From contig JAFVCA010000027.1 of NCBI GenBank assembly GCA_017479705.1, positions 40,480-104,479 on the forward strand: a stretch of 64,000 nucleotides of DNA, given 5' to 3'. The DNA is from Bacteroidales bacterium (GTDB lineage Bacteria > Bacteroidota > Bacteroidia > Bacteroidales > P3). Both the position numbers and the translations under genes were made by a program. Below are positions 17,289 to 62,854 of the stretch, piece by piece; position 1 is the stretch's first letter; each line of letters begins with the position of its first letter. Under the pieces are notes generated by a model. The model worked only from the letters and a program-made list of their open reading frames with translations, searched no databases and had not been told where the DNA came from.

Positions 17289-17296
17289 TATCTTTG
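17289..17296 (+). promoter_or_regulatory. -7 box of the XRE gene
   Basis: TATCTTTG, 33 nt before ATG 17330. It shows that the in-frame start at 17294 is upstream of the transcript. Confidence 0.6.
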
Positions 17297-17329
17297 CACC
17301 CAATTAGCAACAACAAACACCCCCTACCC

Positions 17330-17554
17330 ATGCCCAACAACATGCAGATACACATAGGCCTCATCATCCGCGACGAGCTGCGACGCCAAGGGCGCACCAA
17401 CGCCTGGCTGGCCGAGCAAATAGGCATCACCCCGCGCGCCCTGCAAAAAATCTTCAACAAACAATCCATCGACACCCAGCAACTCACCACCATCTGCACC
17501 GTCCTCCACACCGACCTCTTCCGCCTCTACTCCGACCTCCTCGCCAACCAATAA
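17330..17554 (+). CDS. Small XRE-type helix-turn-helix regulator
   Basis: A 74-residue protein made almost wholly of one Cro/C1-type HTH: RDELRRQGRTNAWLAEQIGI, then TPRALQKIFNKQSIDTQQLT. It would act as a cytoplasmic DNA-binding protein. ATG 17330 or ATG 17342 are both possible starts; the -7 box at 17289-17296 excludes the longer frame. It stands alone between rpsA and the peptide-lipoprotein module, and no toxin or phage gene accompanies it. Its target is unknown. Confidence 0.72.
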   Translation: MPNNMQIHIGLIIRDELRRQGRTNAWLAEQIGITPRALQKIFNKQSIDTQQLTTICTVLHTDLFRLYSDLLANQ

Positions 17555-17829: not shown

Positions 17830-17837
17830 TATTTTTG
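17830..17837 (+). promoter_or_regulatory. -7 box of peptide-lipoprotein module A
   Basis: TATTTTTG, followed by CAGCCGAA. The leader to ATG 17977 would be ~135 nt. Confidence 0.5.
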
Positions 17838-17976: not shown

Positions 17977-18156
17977 ATGAAAGAAAACAAAATCTATTGC
18001 GCCCCCATTATCGAGGTGCTTGATGCAAGAGTTGAAAAAGGTTTTGCCGGTTCCCCTGTGATAGAGCCACAACCCGACCCCGTAACCCCTCCCGATGGCG
18101 GTTTCGACGCTGGTGGTCAAACAGGTTGGTCTGATGGCGGCTACCTGCTCACCTAA
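17977..18156 (+). CDS. Module A small peptide (59 aa), unknown function
   Basis: A 59-residue protein too short for most gene callers. The N-terminal half (YCAPIIEVLDARVEKGFAGS) matches the peptides of module B (20104) and module C (62595) by the pattern Y-x-x-P-x-[VI]-x-V-x-x-x-R-V-E-x-G-F-x-[AG]-S. The C-terminal half is Pro/Gly/Asp-rich and unlike the others. It has no signal peptide or Cys cluster. It lies 70 bp before a large lipoprotein gene, as its homologues do. Conservation in three loci supports a real gene. Function is unknown. Confidence 0.75.
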   Translation: MKENKIYCAPIIEVLDARVEKGFAGSPVIEPQPDPVTPPDGGFDAGGQTGWSDGGYLLT

Positions 18157-18226
18157 TTGCTCCATGCAACCTCGCGTTTATCAACAAACAAACATTAATT
18201 AATCGATTAAAAATCAAAACCACACA

Positions 18227-19840
18227 ATGAGAAAAATATTAAGCAAGACATCCATTGTCCTCTTTGCCGCTGCCATGTTCATGGTTGGCTGCAAAAACGA
18301 AACCGAACAGATTTTCCAACTCCAGATGCCCGAGTACTCCGGTGAAGACAAAACCACCTTTGGCTCCGGCAACACCACCCTGTGGACCGCTGGCGACCCC
18401 GTGCTCATCAACAGCACCTCCGGCAACGTCCAGAGCAGCAGCAGCATCTCCTTCAGCACCCCCATCGACCCCATCAACAAAATGTTCTACTCCCTCTATG
18501 CTGGCCGCGCCACCAGTCCTTCATTCGATGCAAACACTTGCAGCTACACCTACACCATGCCCTCCTCCTTCACCTACACTGCCAACCAGCTGCAGGCTCC
18601 CATGGTGGGTCAGTGCGCCTACATCGGCAAGGATGCCAGACACACCATCATCTACTCCAACATCTGCACCCTGCTGAAACTCGAATTCGTCGTCATCCCC
18701 GACCAGGTGACCATCACCTCCGAGAACACCGCCCTCTCCGGCAACTTCACCGCCACCTATGCTGACGGCAATTGGACGGTTACCGCTCCCGCCGCCACCA
18801 GCTCCAACAAGACTCTCACCATTACAAACTCCAACTACAACTCCGTCATGTACGTCCCCCTGCCCGCTGGCAACCACAAGCTGACCATCTCCGGCACCTG
18901 CAATGTCAGTGGCACCAATGTGGCCGCTCCTTTCTATAAGGAAATGACCAGTAGCGTCAATATGCTGAAAGGTTACCTCTACACCGTCAAGTGCGCCCAC
19001 GCCTTCTCCATTTCCGCCAACAGGAAAGTATTTTTCTCTCCCGGCAACCTCCAGTATTACAACACCAGCACCTATCCTTTAAGCATTACTGATTTAGATG
19101 CTCGTTGGGATGGTGATGGAATCAATTCGAATAGCTGTTTCAGATTTGCTCAACATCAATGGGACAACAACATCACCAGCAACAATATCAAAGAGGAACG
19201 AGTACTTCTTGTCACCTATCACGATGTCCGAGGCAATGGGGCTTGGATTGACCTCTTTGGCTGGGCCACTGGCAGAAATCCCGGCCGCAGCAGAACCACC
19301 AGCCTTGCCTATAGCGGTAGCGGTGTTGACTACGCCGACTGGGGCAACAACCTCACCCTTCCTATTATCAATGCCAAGACCAACGAAAGCTGGCGCACAT
19401 GGCACACCGAAGGCTCATGGTATACCTTAGGCAGATCCGAATGGACATACCTTATCGGACACAGCACTAAGAAATTGGCTACCGTAAATGGTACCGCCGG
19501 TCTTATCATTGCCCCCGACGATTTCAGCGGCTCCCTCCAAACTTCATACTCTGGCACAGCCTGGACCAACCTCGAAAAAAGAGGTGTAATCTTCCTGCCC
19601 GGCTCTGGTTACAGACACTACGGCGAAGGTATTCGTCGCTCATGGGGCTACAGCAGCGACTGGAATGGCTACTGGACAATGACCGACTCCGAGGAATGGG
19701 GCGACTACTATGCCTACTTCATGAAGTTCAGTCCCTCTTATGGCCCCAACGTTGAACGTCCCAGCGTATCACATTCTGGAACAGCTAATTCCAACAAACC
19801 TACCGGCCTGTGCGTCCGTTTAGTTCAAAATGCCAACTAA
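18227..19840 (+). CDS. Module A lipoprotein with C-terminal GNLQY/IDLFGW domain
   Basis: A 537-residue exported lipoprotein: signal peptide with lipobox FMVGC (Cys22), then acidic CKNETEQ, compatible with surface export in Bacteroidota. The N-terminal half (~30-260) is Ser/Thr/Asn-rich and beta-rich, fimbrillin-like. The C-terminal ~270 residues begin AFSISANRKVFFSPGNLQYY and include WIDLFGWATG, VDYADWGNN, WRTWH, GLIIAPDDF and a final CVRLVQ. The domain recalls the Fib_succ_major/DUF1566 lectin-like folds, but this is inference. It follows the 59-aa peptide and ends at a terminator. Confidence 0.78.
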   Translation: MRKILSKTSIVLFAAAMFMVGCKNETEQIFQLQMPEYSGEDKTTFGSGNTTLWTAGDPVLINSTSGNVQSSSSISFSTPIDPINKMFYSLYAGRATSPSFDANTCSYTYTMPSSFTYTANQLQAPMVGQCAYIGKDARHTIIYSNICTLLKLEFVVIPDQVTITSENTALSGNFTATYADGNWTVTAPAATSSNKTLTITNSNYNSVMYVPLPAGNHKLTISGTCNVSGTNVAAPFYKEMTSSVNMLKGYLYTVKCAHAFSISANRKVFFSPGNLQYYNTSTYPLSITDLDARWDGDGINSNSCFRFAQHQWDNNITSNNIKEERVLLVTYHDVRGNGAWIDLFGWATGRNPGRSRTTSLAYSGSGVDYADWGNNLTLPIINAKTNESWRTWHTEGSWYTLGRSEWTYLIGHSTKKLATVNGTAGLIIAPDDFSGSLQTSYSGTAWTNLEKRGVIFLPGSGYRHYGEGIRRSWGYSSDWNGYWTMTDSEEWGDYYAYFMKFSPSYGPNVERPSVSHSGTANSNKPTGLCVRLVQNAN

Positions 19841-19860
19841 ACAATTCAGCTGACATACTA

Positions 19861-19904
19861 ACTTATTTGCTCACCCTCTTTGCGGGGTGGGCAAATAAGT
19901 TTTC
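19861..19904 (+). terminator. Intrinsic terminator of module A
   Basis: ACTTATTTGC / GCAAATAAGT with an inner CACCC / GGGTG, then TTTT. It separates modules A and B. Confidence 0.88.
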
Positions 19905-19940
19905 TCTGTCAACCGGCAACAACAATCATCAACAAACAAT

Positions 19941-20065
19941 AGGTCACCTCTAAAAATTATTGTTGAACACGAATTACACTAATCTAACGAATTATTATTC
20001 GAGCTATTTGTGTTATTCGTGTTCGTCAGAAATGAATAACTAATAATTAGTGTTAGAGGTTGCCT
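19941..20065. repeat. Imperfect palindromic element between modules A and B (MITE-like)
   Basis: The ends AGGTCACCTCTAA and TTAGAGGTTGCCT are near-inverted repeats. Inside, GAACACGAATTACAC faces GTGTTATTCGTGTTC. The ~125 bp has no coding potential. Confidence 0.6.
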
Positions 20066-20103
20066 GAATACAATAAACAATCCAAAACAATAACAACACA
20101 ACA

Positions 20104-20295
20104 ATGGAAAAAGAGACATACACCACACCCCGCGTCAAAGTGGTACATTTCCGCGTGGAGCACGGATTCGAAGCCTCCCCAAATTTCTCCGCTGGCGACA
20201 GCAGTACCATCGAGACCACCAGCGACCTGTTCGGCACCGAAGCCATTTCACAAAACGGCGATGTTATCGGCCGCGATGCTCTTACCCGTTACTAA
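20104..20295 (+). CDS. Module B small peptide (63 aa), unknown function
   Basis: A 63-residue protein. Its N-terminal half YTTPRVKVVHFRVEHGFEAS aligns without gaps to the peptides of modules A and C. The C-terminal half is Ser/Thr/Asp-rich and ends GRDALTRY. It has no signal peptide or membrane helix. The lipoprotein gene begins 12 bp after its stop, the tightest coupling of the three modules, so translational coupling is likely. No -7 box close to its start is convincing; expression could come from the palindromic element upstream or from read-through. Confidence 0.75.
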   Translation: MEKETYTTPRVKVVHFRVEHGFEASPNFSAGDSSTIETTSDLFGTEAISQNGDVIGRDALTRY

Positions 20296-20307
20296 AAACC
20301 CATAGCC

Positions 20308-22176
20308 ATGAACAGACAACACACACTCCTTACCCTTGGCGCAGCCTTCGTGATGCTCGCCTTCAGCTCGTGCCAGAAAGACCGTATGGGCAGCACCTTC
20401 ACCGCCACCCTTGAGCGCTATGCCGACATCAACACCAAGACCCACCTCGACGGCAACCGCCTCAAGTGGGACGCCTCCGACCGCATCATCGTCCTGAACG
20501 ACAACATGAACTTCGGCATCTACGCCGCCACCGCCGGCGGCGCAGTCACCGCCGACTTCACCTACATAGACAACGCCTCCAACACCGGCTGGGACCTCGA
20601 CGTGGGCAACCCCGAAGCCTCCTGCTACGGCGACGGCTACCCCCAAGCCAATTTCTTCCAAGCCATCTATCCCGCCGAAATCGTCGACATCCAAGCCGGC
20701 GGCGTCACCCTCCCTGCCACCTACAGCAGCCCCGACGGCAACCTGCACGGCTTCCCCATGTACGCCTACTCCACCACCAACAAGCTCAACTTCAGGAATG
20801 CCTTCGGCCTTGTCAAGCTCACCATGTATAAAGCCAACACCACCATCACCTCCATCTCCGTCACCGCCGACCGTCCCATCAACGGCCTCTTCACCATCGA
20901 CAACACTACCGAGTGGACCCTCGGCCAGGTTGCCGTCCCCCCGTTAGCCTACAGCAGCAACGGCAACAACACCACCACCCTCACCCTCGGCACCAACGGC
21001 GCTGGCATCTCCATCGACGACGTCAACGCGAAAGACTTCTACATCTGCCTGCCTCCGGGAGAATACAGCAGCCTCACCTTCACCTTCACCAACAGCGAAG
21101 GCGGCTACTGCACCCTCAGCAAGAACTCCCCCACCACCATTGCCCGCAGCCAGTACACAGCCTTCGACCTCCGCGACAACGACCCCACCGACGAACTGTT
21201 AGTCTTCCGCGACATCAGCGGCCTCTTCTCCATCGGCTCCAACCAGTACGTCAAGTTCTCCCCCGGCAACCTGCAATACAGCCCCTCCACCAACGTCTGG
21301 CGCTTCGCCCCCACGCAGCTCAGTTATGTAGGTGAAAGCCAAGGAGACTATTTCCGCGGGGATGTATCGTCCATAGAGTGGATAGACCTCTTTGGTTGGG
21401 GAACAGGCAATAACCCCACCCTCTGCTCAACCGACGATGCCGACTACTCCACTTTCAACGACTGGGGTAACAACACCATTTCAAACGGCGGCGACTACAC
21501 CTGGCGCACCCTTACCTTAGACGAATGGGCATACCTCGCCGCAGGACGTCCCGACGCATTCCAAAAGGTAGGCGGAGCCAACGTTGCGGGCGTAAACGGC
21601 TTCATCTTCCTGCCCGACGTATGGCACCAGCCAGCAGGGACCACCTTTGTTCCCGGTTTCGGCTGGAACGACTTCTACAGCCGCAACACCTACACTGCCG
21701 CCCAGGCACAATTAATGGAAGCTGCTGGAGCCATCTTCCTGCCCGCAGCAGGAGCAATGGGAACCGTGACCGTTTCTGGCACCAACGTACAATGGATGTA
21801 TACTCACAGTGCACAATGGCCACAATTAGGAACCCGCTGGGAAGATGCAGAAGGTGTTCTGGCACCTTTAGTGTGGCTGATTTTACAGCTTGAGGAAAAG
21901 GCCAACTTTTATTGGTCTGCCACATCCTCTGGCGATGAATACCTTTCATTCGAGAATACAAATAACACAACAGGTGCCTACGGCGGTGCATTCTCACAGA
22001 CTGGCCTGTATGATGACATCTTCAGTCACCCCGATGCCGAAGGGGTAATACAAGATGGGCAAGATATGGGCTTTTATATTGCCGATGGATTATATGCCAT
22101 CATGCTGCCCATGGCACCCCAGGCTAAGGCTGCTGTGCGTTTGGTGCGCGACGTCGTTCCCGGCGGCTCCAAGTAA
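20308..22176 (+). CDS. Module B lipoprotein, fimbrillin-like with GNLQY/IDLFGW domain
   Basis: A 622-residue lipoprotein: lipobox AFSSC, then QKDR. The N-terminal part has the Mfa/fimbrillin-like pattern KTHLDGNRLKWDASDRIIVL (residues ~40-60), as in Bacteroidales surface adhesins. A beta-rich middle follows. The C-terminal domain begins ISGLFSIGSNQYVKFSPGNL and contains WRFAPTQL, WIDLFGWGTG, FNDWGNN, WRTLTLDEWAYL, GFIFLPD, LMEAAGAIFLPAAG and a terminal AVRLV. It is a clear paralogue of the module A and C proteins. Probably surface-exposed; the ligand is unknown. Confidence 0.8.
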   Translation: MNRQHTLLTLGAAFVMLAFSSCQKDRMGSTFTATLERYADINTKTHLDGNRLKWDASDRIIVLNDNMNFGIYAATAGGAVTADFTYIDNASNTGWDLDVGNPEASCYGDGYPQANFFQAIYPAEIVDIQAGGVTLPATYSSPDGNLHGFPMYAYSTTNKLNFRNAFGLVKLTMYKANTTITSISVTADRPINGLFTIDNTTEWTLGQVAVPPLAYSSNGNNTTTLTLGTNGAGISIDDVNAKDFYICLPPGEYSSLTFTFTNSEGGYCTLSKNSPTTIARSQYTAFDLRDNDPTDELLVFRDISGLFSIGSNQYVKFSPGNLQYSPSTNVWRFAPTQLSYVGESQGDYFRGDVSSIEWIDLFGWGTGNNPTLCSTDDADYSTFNDWGNNTISNGGDYTWRTLTLDEWAYLAAGRPDAFQKVGGANVAGVNGFIFLPDVWHQPAGTTFVPGFGWNDFYSRNTYTAAQAQLMEAAGAIFLPAAGAMGTVTVSGTNVQWMYTHSAQWPQLGTRWEDAEGVLAPLVWLILQLEEKANFYWSATSSGDEYLSFENTNNTTGAYGGAFSQTGLYDDIFSHPDAEGVIQDGQDMGFYIADGLYAIMLPMAPQAKAAVRLVRDVVPGGSK

Positions 22177-60813: not shown

Positions 60814-62394
60814 TTATTCAGCAACAAGAGCCAAACGGACAGAACTGCCCTGATGTTTGGGATACTGGTTGGTGGAAAGTATCTTAGTATTATTGAAGTA
60901 GGTAGCAGCAGCTTTGTCAGTGTTATTGCTGACATTAGACCAGTAGCAACCAACGGTCTCAACATCTACAGTAAGCTCACCTTCACGGACACCGGCAGCG
61001 GGCAGGAAGACTGCGCCATTAGCCTCCATAAGAGCCCATTCAGCATAGGAGTAGCTGTTGATTTCCCAAGTTCTATTAGCAACAGTAGAGGCACCAGGTG
61101 TGAACTGGAGACCAGCAGGCATTGTCCAATCATCGGGAAGGATAATCAAACCAGGGATACCATTGATGGTACCAATACCACGTTTTGCAGCAGCGTTAGG
61201 ACGGCTGATAAAGAGATAACGGAGCTCGGAAACATTGAGGAGTCTCCACTGGTCAGCTTGGTTACCGCCATTAGCAATAGCATTGTAAACACCCCAATCG
61301 TAGTTAGTCCTGGAAATGCCTCTGTTGTAACCGAAACCATACTGGGTGTTGTCGATGCTGGTCATATAGGGGAGTTTGCCATCAAAACCGCTGGCACCCC
61401 AACCAAAGAGGTCGATAGTGGAGTTAGCGGTGGGGTTGGCATTAGCGGTTCCAAGATAGTCATACTGATGCTCAGCGAACTGCCAAGTACCGGTAGTTCC
61501 AACATACTGGAGGTTACCTTTTGCAAAATAGATTTGCTTGCTTGCGCTGATGGAGAAAAGACCGTTAATGGCACCAGCAGGAACATTAGTGGGTTCAGCG
61601 GGAACGAAGTTGAGGGCGTTCTCACCCAGAGAAATCTGAGAAACCTGGCTGCGATAGATGTTCAAACCAATAAAGTTGCTGTTAGTGCTCTTGGTGCAAA
61701 CACTACCATCCTCAGCAGTGATAGTGATAGTCAGCGAGGTGTACGTGTTGTGAGGCAGGTACATGTAGAAATCGTGACCATTGGAGATGTCCTGAGCAGT
61801 AGCGCAAACCAAAGAAGCGGTGTTGGAGCCACCAGAAACGAGGTTGATGGTGGGGGCATCACCGTTCATGATGATGGTGTACTGACCGTTGACAGCAGCA
61901 TTGGTGGTAACGTCAATGCGGGAAACACTGACACCATTCTTCTGGAGAGAGAGCTTCAAGGCACCACAGAGGTTCTTGAAAGAAAGATTCTCATCGTTGG
62001 AAACGGCATACATGGGGAAACCAGTCAGCGAGCCATCCTCGGAGTTCTGGACAGCGGGGAGAGCAACAGTGGTGGAAGCCACAGCTATGCTGGCGGGGAA
62101 GATAGCAGTATAAGGAGCATCACCAGCATTACCACTCACGAGAGAGAAAGTGGCAGAAGTGGCTTCGACTGCGGGCTGGGCAGCGTAGATAGCACATCCT
62201 GCAGTGCCATAAACAGCAACCTGATCGCCAGAGACCCATTCGACACCTTCACCATTCAAAACAGTCTTACCATCCTGAAAGGTGCAAGGCTCCTGAACAG
62301 CGTTGAACTTTGCAACGCCCTCATCCTTTTGGCAAGAAGTCACTGCCAAGGCGAGACCCATAAGGGAGAAAAGGGAAATAAGAGTTCTTTTCAT
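60814..62394 (-). CDS. Module C lipoprotein, fimbrillin-like with GNLQY/IDLFGW domain
   Basis: A 526-residue lipoprotein: lipobox AVTSC, then QKDEG, a surface-export-like signal. The N-terminal Mfa-like region has KTVLNGEGVEWVSGDQVAVY and GFPMYAVSNDENLSFKNLCG. The C-terminal domain begins INGLFSISASKQIYFAKGNL and has WQFAEHQYDYLG, TIDLFGWGASG, YDWGVYNAIANGG, WRLLNVSELRYL, GLIILPDDW, LMEANGAVFLPAAG and a final SSVRLALVAE. It is a paralogue of the module A and B proteins, 40 kb away and on the other strand. It follows its peptide gene by 39 bp. Confidence 0.8.
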   Translation of the reverse strand: MKRTLISLFSLMGLALAVTSCQKDEGVAKFNAVQEPCTFQDGKTVLNGEGVEWVSGDQVAVYGTAGCAIYAAQPAVEATSATFSLVSGNAGDAPYTAIFPASIAVASTTVALPAVQNSEDGSLTGFPMYAVSNDENLSFKNLCGALKLSLQKNGVSVSRIDVTTNAAVNGQYTIIMNGDAPTINLVSGGSNTASLVCATAQDISNGHDFYMYLPHNTYTSLTITITAEDGSVCTKSTNSNFIGLNIYRSQVSQISLGENALNFVPAEPTNVPAGAINGLFSISASKQIYFAKGNLQYVGTTGTWQFAEHQYDYLGTANANPTANSTIDLFGWGASGFDGKLPYMTSIDNTQYGFGYNRGISRTNYDWGVYNAIANGGNQADQWRLLNVSELRYLFISRPNAAAKRGIGTINGIPGLIILPDDWTMPAGLQFTPGASTVANRTWEINSYSYAEWALMEANGAVFLPAAGVREGELTVDVETVGCYWSNVSNNTDKAAATYFNNTKILSTNQYPKHQGSSVRLALVAE

Positions 62395-62433: not shown

Positions 62434-62595
62434 TTAATCGAAGTCGCTACCATCGTGAGATTCACCGCTGGAAACCAGATTCTCATTGGAGCCAGTGGGG
62501 AGCAGTTCGCCACTTGCCTGAAAACCTTTTTCTACACGAGCGTTCAGCACTTCAACCATTGGAGCATAATACTCCTTTTTCAAATTTTCTTTCAT
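62434..62595 (-). CDS. Module C small peptide (53 aa), unknown function
   Basis: A 53-residue protein. YYAPMVEVLNARVEKGFQAS is nearly identical to the module A peptide (YCAPIIEVLDARVEKGFAGS), and both start MKEN. The C-terminal half is Ser/Gly/Asp-rich and ends SHDGSDFD. No signal peptide is seen. The conservation of the first ~27 residues against variable tails suggests that the N-terminal half is recognised by something and the tail is cargo or a spacer. That is inference. Confidence 0.77.
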   Translation of the reverse strand: MKENLKKEYYAPMVEVLNARVEKGFQASGELLPTGSNENLVSSGESHDGSDFD

Positions 62596-62854
62596 GATTT
62601 TTTGATTAAAATTTAACGTTAATATTATTCAGTTTTTTTCTTTCAATCGGTGTATGATAAAGCCTGTTTTTTAATCTACCGCCCCCTCAAAAAACATTTT
62701 TTTGCGGTTTTTCGGTCGATTTTCCCATTCTTTGTTTTGTCCTTACTACGTTCGTATACCTTTTTGCAATTATTTATTATACATTCAATTACACATACAA
62801 TACCTCAAAAAATACAGCCTAAAAAGACTAATATTTCTCGAACTATTTCAAATG

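Follow-up and report, generated by a model that had tools for sequence, protein, structure and literature searches.

The closest described counterparts of the system considered here, a set of short peptide genes each lying beside a lipoprotein gene in a 64,000-nucleotide stretch of a Bacteroidales genome (the window; positions 40480-104479 of contig C44, from a 2.1 Mb bin that is 74.7% complete), are clusters that make lasso peptides. Lasso leaders carry a YxxP motif that is bound by PqqD-type proteins. The paeninodin and pseudomycoidin lasso clusters (PadeB1, PadeK/PsmK, PsmN) share with the present system a PqqD-type leader binder, a nucleotidyltransferase, an ATP-binding cassette (ABC) transporter, a His-Lys-Asp-Asp kinase and a YxxP-type leader. 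The accessible text of two papers (PMC9266682, PMC7533575) places PqqD, an HPr-kinase homologue, a PF14907-type nucleotidyltransferase and an ABC transporter in lasso clusters, and the accessible part of a third (PMC5067487) describes B1 proteins as annotated PqqD homologues, one of which binds its leader with nanomolar affinity. Unlike the paeninodin and pseudomycoidin clusters, the present system has no B2 peptidase scoring over its cut-off and no recognised cyclase, encodes an S24/S26-type peptidase instead, and has many scattered precursors, most of them beside a surface lipoprotein, in which no C-terminal Ser is conserved.

Three other described entities invite comparison. The HPr-rel-A system (TIGR04352, HprK-related kinase A; TIGR04353, PqqD_rel_X) shares the idea of a PqqD “peptide chaperone” accompanied by a kinase. 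Weak matches to TIGR04352 were found for two of the present kinases (E 9.8e-4 and 1.2e-5; 18.3 and 24.6 bits, cut-off 200) and to TIGR04353 for one PqqD protein (E 1.5e-4; 22.6 bits, cut-off 35), scores far under both cut-offs that leave these proteins outside HPr-rel-A, from which the present system also differs by its S24/S26-type peptidase, peptides and lipoproteins. The Bacteroidales clusters for ribosomally synthesised and post-translationally modified peptides (RiPPs) in PMC10352776 have the bacterial order, precursor peptides and transporters in common with it; in the accessible portion of that paper, they differ by radical SAM enzymes and peptidase-containing transporters, with a kinase appearing only as histidine kinase, and neither “fimbr” nor “lipoprotein” occurs in the main text. 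The Fibrobacter succinogenes major paralogous domain (Fib_succ_major, PF09603) resembles the C-domain of some partner lipoproteins, with 2 of 50 relatives matching at E 0.01 or better, but lipoproteins A and B of the window have no match to it, and this C-domain is one of several passengers. A literature search that left most subscription journals uncovered found no paper on an HprK-related kinase, HPr-rel-A or a PqqD family peptide chaperone, none joining Bacteroides, PqqD and HPr kinase, and no description of RiPP-type maturation tied to surface lipoproteins, although an earlier description is possible.

The evidence set out below indicates that the small proteins are probably ribosomally made precursors in a RiPP-like system, matured in trans, likely to be phosphorylated, and each linked to one surface lipoprotein. 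The system is apparently of a bacterial kind so far undescribed. An earlier note on this DNA had proposed a two-gene system; the conserved pairing stands, but two genes are incomplete as a description, as the enzymes lie on another contig (C9) in this genome and beside the pair in other Bacteroidales. The pair thus looks like the satellite of a larger system comprising PqqD, an HPr-kinase-like kinase, an S24/S26-type peptidase and, in many cases, a nucleotidyltransferase and an ABC transporter.

Peptide-lipoprotein pairs and their generality

The window holds three pairs, with the following features:

17830..17837, + strand: promoter-like −7 element TAnnTTTG, 5′ of peptide A (match to the Bacteroidales −7 consensus)
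17977..18156, + strand: precursor-like peptide A, 59 residues, leader to GFAGS followed by an acidic/Gly/aromatic tail (motif, peptide profile)
18227..19840, + strand: lipoprotein A, 537 residues, lipobox MVGC, shared N-domain, GNLQY/IDLFGW C-domain (N-domain profile, E 1.6e-20)
20104..20295, + strand: precursor-like peptide B, 63 residues (motif, peptide profile)
20308..22176, + strand: lipoprotein B, 622 residues, lipobox FSSC, shared N-domain, GNLQY/IDLFGW C-domain (N-domain profile, E 6e-53)
60814..62394, − strand: lipoprotein C, 526 residues, architecture as A and B (N-domain profile, E 1.6e-80)
about 62434..62595, − strand: precursor-like peptide C, 53 residues from Met, within frame 62434-62628 (peptide profile; G000:C44:102916-103074)

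The coordinates bear out the two pairs that the earlier note had described at 17977-22176, with spacings of 70 bp (A) and 12 bp (B); in pair C the spacing is 39 bp. The N-terminal motif that it had seen in the small proteins, with tails that differ, likewise holds for A, B and C. None of the three peptides has a hydrophobic segment when judged by eye, and their partner lipoproteins carry lipoboxes. The C-terminal domain said to be shared by lipoproteins A and B is present, with GNLQY and IDLFGW found in both, but the similarity is weak (38% over residues 357-460 of B, E 6e-4).

The pairing is general. One hundred fetched loci and 7 earlier ones yielded 117 peptide frames at 116 distinct places, and an N-domain lipoprotein, recognised with a profile trained on other genomes than that of the window, lies directly downstream of the peptide at 96 of these places and directly upstream at 11; 4 peptides abut a contig end and 5 have no such partner. 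Away from contig ends, a lipoprotein accordingly stands beside the peptide in 107 of 112 places, which answers the earlier note's own caution that the peptide might usually be found without it. Its statement that the peptide always precedes the lipoprotein applies to the 96 downstream partners and fails for the 11 upstream ones. By comparison, the next gene is a lipoprotein in 51 of 241 background cases, an upper bound because genes after peptides are included. Conversely, no peptide was detected next to 9 of the 118 N-domain frames, in loci that were themselves chosen by peptide. Among the five places without a partner, L116 has a short remnant upstream resembling a decayed lipoprotein end (by eye), in L140 the peptide follows a large protein whose C-terminus looks by eye like a sorting domain of the type IX secretion system (T9SS), L152 has a non-matching lipoprotein followed further downstream by three N-domain frames, and neither L120 nor L133 has an N-domain frame nearby. 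Peptides, alone or with a lipoprotein that is little more than the N-domain, were noticed by eye directly after large proteins with such T9SS-sorting-domain-like ends in L097, L103, L115, L141, L140, L235, L239 and L242, and in L076 (3244-3729, − strand) the lipoprotein beside the peptide is split over two frames.

With lipoprotein B as the query, its own genome gave 17 matches in 16 genes, of which L009 and L011 match the C-domain alone. A peptide lies just upstream of 11 of the other 14, including L012, where only the tail of the peptide remains at the contig end, and L015, where a divergent peptide (Y-L-P-P ... E-L-G) was recognised by eye. In L005, L006 and L010, about 440-550 bp of repeat-rich sequence separates the lipoprotein from the contig end. 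Repeated blocks (in frame PPAPLKRGGRGCGSL and similar) were seen 5′ of the lipoprotein genes in L005, L006, L008 and L010, where they occupy peptide-lipoprotein gaps or contig ends; such blocks may interrupt the assembly and favour recombination from one module to another.

The median spacing between peptide and lipoprotein is 28.5 bp (96 pairs). The element TAnnTTTG, the Bacteroidales −7 consensus, is present in the 160 bp 5′ of the peptide in 34 of 94 pairs (mean in shuffled sequence, 6.5) and in none of 96 peptide-lipoprotein gaps, a zero that the short gaps make weak. This is the pattern expected of one transcript. The short spacing, the apparent co-transcription and the lack of a signal sequence on the peptide would suit a cytosolic regulator or chaperone, which would act on the lipoprotein by translational coupling or by holding the preprotein while being neither processed nor exported. 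Such a role is nevertheless quite unlikely, given that the lipoprotein precedes the peptide in 11 of 116 places, that some peptides follow what by eye is T9SS-type cargo (L140, L235) or immediately precede the kinase (L304), and that it does not predict the co-occurrence of peptides and kinase described below. A leader or attenuator peptide was set aside since the peptide also occurs 3′ of the lipoprotein, in those same 11 of 116.

The peptide family and the partner N-domain

The genome of the window yields 13 places with the peptide profile: 11 score E 1e-4 or lower, and the other 2 fall short of significance (E 0.1-0.26). The profile matches 35 of 61 genomes (the own genome counted). As many as 23 matches occur in a single genome of the genus, and on the fetched loci the profile picks out 149 frames compared to 0 on reversed sequences. 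Selection was estimated from the ratio of non-synonymous to synonymous substitutions (dN/dS) in 51 close, non-independent pairs that were ungapped, of equal length and at least 70% identical. The 20 codons that begin at the Tyr give a ratio of 0.12 and the tail one of 0.11, indicating purifying selection on both halves rather than the value near 1 that the earlier note had named as telling against its proposal. The own-genome matches, the 149 frames against 0 and the dN/dS values together place the family beyond chance.

The anatomy of the peptides is that of RiPP precursors, namely a short ribosomal peptide with a conserved leader and a variable core. The N-terminus of about 25 residues (Y-x-x-P-x-[VL]-x-V ... 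E-x-G-[FY]-x-x-S) is conserved, with Y9, P12, E22 and G24 invariant across 76 aligned rows, and is followed by a diverse tail rich in acidic, Gly, Asn and aromatic residues; mean identity is 0.45 in the leader and 0.25 in the tail (82 pairs). The 76 members gave nothing significant against Pfam and NCBIfam (best E 0.027 and 0.043), and no PDB match by sequence up to E 1 was found, on which grounds a known small-protein family was rejected. Models of lasso precursors matched weakly, lasso_cyano in 4 of 76 peptides and the PadeA family in 3 of 76 (best E 0.043). These weak matches, set against the YxxP/PqqD background, predict a PqqD protein acting in trans.

The notion that the peptides are classical lasso precursors draws on the YxxP-type leader and on the PqqD, kinase, nucleotidyltransferase and transporter genes that the accessible texts cited above also place in lasso clusters. 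It is highly improbable, as the B2 leader peptidase (PF13471) exceeds its cut-off in 0 of 41 genomes of the genus and is sub-threshold in 4 of 41, and no asparagine-synthetase-like lasso cyclase was recognised by eye in the gene maps, where no profile search for one was made. Assignment to the lasso class was rejected on the lack of a B2 peptidase over cut-off and on precursor-model matches no better than E 0.043.

The lipoproteins were followed within the genus with an N-domain profile built from the mature parts of 27 training rows from other genomes; at a threshold of E 1e-3, it recovers 65 of the 67 rows held out of training. It replaces an earlier profile with some circularity, since that one was seeded from the window and retained signal peptides; the earlier profile is still the basis outside the genus. 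Of 52 lipoproteins that do not immediately follow a peptide, 16 are matched by the newer profile at the same threshold, and at least 8 of those 16 lie upstream of one. Beyond the N-domain the lipoproteins vary: among 50 relatives compared with Pfam, the C-terminal parts match DUF285 (6), LRR_5 (3), Fib_succ_major (2), Glug (1) and others, and a GNLQY-type motif is found in 29 of 96 partner lipoproteins. Some are little more than the N-domain (L088, L097, L103, L115 and L141, about 290-310 residues), and in L097, L103, L115 and L141 such a lipoprotein follows a large protein with a T9SS-sorting-domain-like C-terminus (by eye). Because the C-terminal parts vary and some lipoproteins hold little beyond the N-domain, it is the N-domain that is the constant partner of the peptide.

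The description of the lipoproteins as fimbrillin-like found no confirmation. There is no fimbrillin family among the Pfam matches of the 50 relatives or in PDB by sequence, and lipoproteins A and B have no match in NCBIfam. The single PDB match of the lipoproteins is of residues 8-59 to a peptidyl-prolyl isomerase (E 0.0043), and a DUF4493 match in lipoprotein A (residues 171-257) is sub-threshold at 17.8 of 27 bits, with none in B.

For covariation between peptide and lipoprotein, 82 of 117 rows passed filters on length, lipobox and spacing. Every correlation lies above 300 permutations, and all are weak (0.15-0.35), with the tail against the N-domain giving a Spearman coefficient of 0.21. 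As cassette duplication alone would produce it, covariation is not used as evidence of contact. These data bear on a further explanation, in which the peptide undergoes the same maturation but is secreted as an antimicrobial or signalling RiPP, with the lipoprotein as its immunity protein or receptor, so that only the role of the product differs. The precursor-like anatomy, the ABC transporter in the clusters, the near-constant pairing and the diverse tails (the identities of 0.25 and 0.45 above) would all fit. The explanation is doubtful, though deserving of consideration: adhesion-type passengers (the DUF285, LRR_5 and Fib_succ_major matches) are odd for immunity proteins, the tails are constrained among close relatives (dN/dS 0.11) rather than diversifying, and the tail tracks the N-domain weakly.

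The enzyme locus and its association with the peptides

In most loci examined, a PqqD gene is followed by a gene for a kinase-like protein of about 290 residues and then by one for an S24/S26-type peptidase with a VanZ-like end. PF05402 (PqqD) exceeds its cut-off in 37 of the 41 genomes of the genus and in 3 of 14 control genomes, and in 33 of the 35 genus genomes having the kinase, its gene is no more than about 100 bp from that for PqqD. In the genome of the window this locus is on contig C9, apart from the peptide pairs. The kinase has the P-loop and the His and Asp-Asp catalytic residues of HPr kinase/PEPCK-like proteins: H138, GESGTGKST with K159 (Walker A) and NDD with D178 and D179 are invariant in 18 of 18 rows. 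At the level of sequence, this residue set matches the His-Lys-Asp-Asp motif reported for lasso-tailoring HPr-kinase homologues in the accessible text of PMC9266682. In PDB by sequence the kinase matches phosphoenolpyruvate carboxykinase (PEPCK) at E 0.05, ranked below ABC transporter P-loops. In the focal genus, the third gene (L200:10673-11422) was seen to encode a VanZ-like membrane domain after the S24/S26-type part; shorter versions of the peptidase in clusters seem, judged by length, to lack it.

Peptides and enzymes co-occur. Peptides are present in 37 of 41 genus genomes and the kinase in 35, all of them among the 37 peptide-positive genomes and none among the 4 peptide-negative ones (G013, G014, G332, G334; Fisher p 1.5e-4). 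Among the 24 genomes that are at least 90% complete, the figures are 21 of 21 and 0 of 3. PqqD is found in 36 of 37 peptide-positive and 1 of 4 peptide-negative genomes, or in 0 of 4 if that one, a 23.7-bit match in a 449-residue frame, is set aside. Across 295 genomes of the order, peptides occur in 11 and the kinase in 36; the kinase is found in 8 of 11 peptide-positive compared to 28 of 284 peptide-negative genomes (p 2.9e-6), and all 6 genomes with a kinase match better than 1e-80 carry peptides.

Physical linkage was followed in kinase loci, the best 80 of 569 confirmed stretches from a scan of named genomes for the kinase. With the peptide profile, 19 of these loci were seen to hold 20 peptides in all, compared to 0 in reversed sequence. 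In L289 (Phocaeicola faecalis) the order is peptide, 1086-residue lipoprotein, PqqD, PF14907 nucleotidyltransferase, ABC transporter, kinase and small peptidase, the kinase and peptidase being named by cluster profiles rather than by Pfam. Similar clusters are found in Bacteroides sp. 519 (L328), in P. sartorii (L326, with split frames) and in L280, L315, L322, L285 and L272, of which L272 lacks the nucleotidyltransferase and the transporter. The peptide is immediately 5′ of the kinase in L304 and L295, and linkage also occurs in L230 and L231, from two further genomes. Thus the arrangement typical of RiPP clusters, a leader-binding element and modifying enzymes beside the precursor, is present in L289, L328, L280, L315 and others, whereas in the focal genus the enzymes are available in trans only. 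After the 20 linked peptides, the earlier N-domain profile matches in 14 at E 0.01, which is weak, and in 5 at E 1e-8 (default filters); beyond the 14, in L266 the peptide is followed by a large lipoprotein. Across the 80 loci an S24-type peptidase is found in 79, an ABC transporter in 51, PqqD in 46 and a nucleotidyltransferase in 16, counted with cluster profiles that were trained partly on the loci counted. Near the 80 kinases, 24 frames carry YxxP and 10 carry its mirrored form; 11 of the 24 lack E-x-G-[FY] and look like noise, save one masked copy in L262.

Several findings weigh against reading the peptides as substrates of this locus. Within the focal genus the enzymes do not adjoin the peptides and the link is statistical. 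On a tree of ribosomal protein S1 from 37 of the 41 genomes (G004 and G030 left out for want of a match, G033 as too short and G007 as short), the four peptide-negative genomes need 2 changes, with bootstrap values of 2-3, and a single change is compatible with the well-supported branches; with so few changes, the p-values for the genus overstate independence. Peptides occur without kinase in G006 (72% complete, also without PqqD) and G034 (68%) and, across the order, in 3 of 11 peptide-positive genomes (G202, G275, G329). PqqD is so common there (183 of 295 overall, 9 of 11 peptide-positive) that it says little; it was dropped as an order-wide marker and the kinase used instead. The identities of kinase and peptidase rest on motifs and weak profile matches, and in L289 no Pfam model matched either at E 0.01. 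The resemblance of the leader to lasso precursors is below any threshold, and in the tail alignment no residue is conserved as a phosphorylation site, nor is the C-terminal Ser of paeninodin. Finally, 61 of the 80 kinase loci have no peptide within the flank examined, and Alistipes-type clusters may serve other substrates. Many Alistipes-labelled loci (within L259-L329) were seen to contain an ABC transporter, kinase and S24-type peptidase, with no PqqD gene or peptide detected.

These points are gathered in the explanation that the kinase-PqqD-peptidase locus has another substrate altogether, with its linkage to the peptides reflecting shared ancestry or habitat only. The separate position of the locus in the focal genus, the absence of peptides there amounting to 1-3 events, and the 61 loci without detected peptide are in its favor. 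Direct clustering in several families (L289, L326, L328, L280, L315, L304, L231) and the order-wide association of kinase and peptide argue against it and render it unlikely.

A putative maturation pathway

Gene content suggests how the precursors might mature. PqqD would bind and present the YxxP leader, the kinase would phosphorylate the tail, and the S24/S26-type peptidase would cut near the conserved small-residue/Ser site, after which the ABC transporter, where encoded, would export the tail. Where a nucleotidyltransferase is present, it may extend the modification of the tail, for which PsmN provides a precedent in the accessible text of PMC9266682. In the genome of the window, 11 or more dispersed precursor genes would depend on a single central enzyme locus, that on contig C9. 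More speculatively, the mature peptide could act with the partner N-domain at the cell surface, perhaps as a ligand, as a tag or in the display of the variable C-terminal passenger. The earlier note had guessed that the peptide regulates, chaperones or marks the lipoprotein, or is itself exported; of these guesses export, a putative step, comes nearest.

In its most specific form, the proposal is of a widespread Bacteroidales RiPP-like peptide-tag system in which one central PqqD-kinase-peptidase set matures peptides from across the genome in trans, every peptide being fixed to a surface lipoprotein whose shared N-domain receives or displays the phosphopeptide, with no free antibiotic being made; this is offered tentatively, as one possible outcome. 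The broader precursor reading would give a large unannotated small-protein family of gut Bacteroidales, including Bacteroides and Phocaeicola, a testable biochemical pathway, and would connect surface lipoproteins with maturation of the RiPP type. Its predictions are phosphopeptides and a partner that binds the leader, both of which can be checked in culturable species.

Upstream of the first pair in the window, between the gene for ribosomal protein S1 and peptide A, an 86-residue frame (17294-17554, + strand) has the look, by eye, of a Cro/CI-type helix-turn-helix protein.

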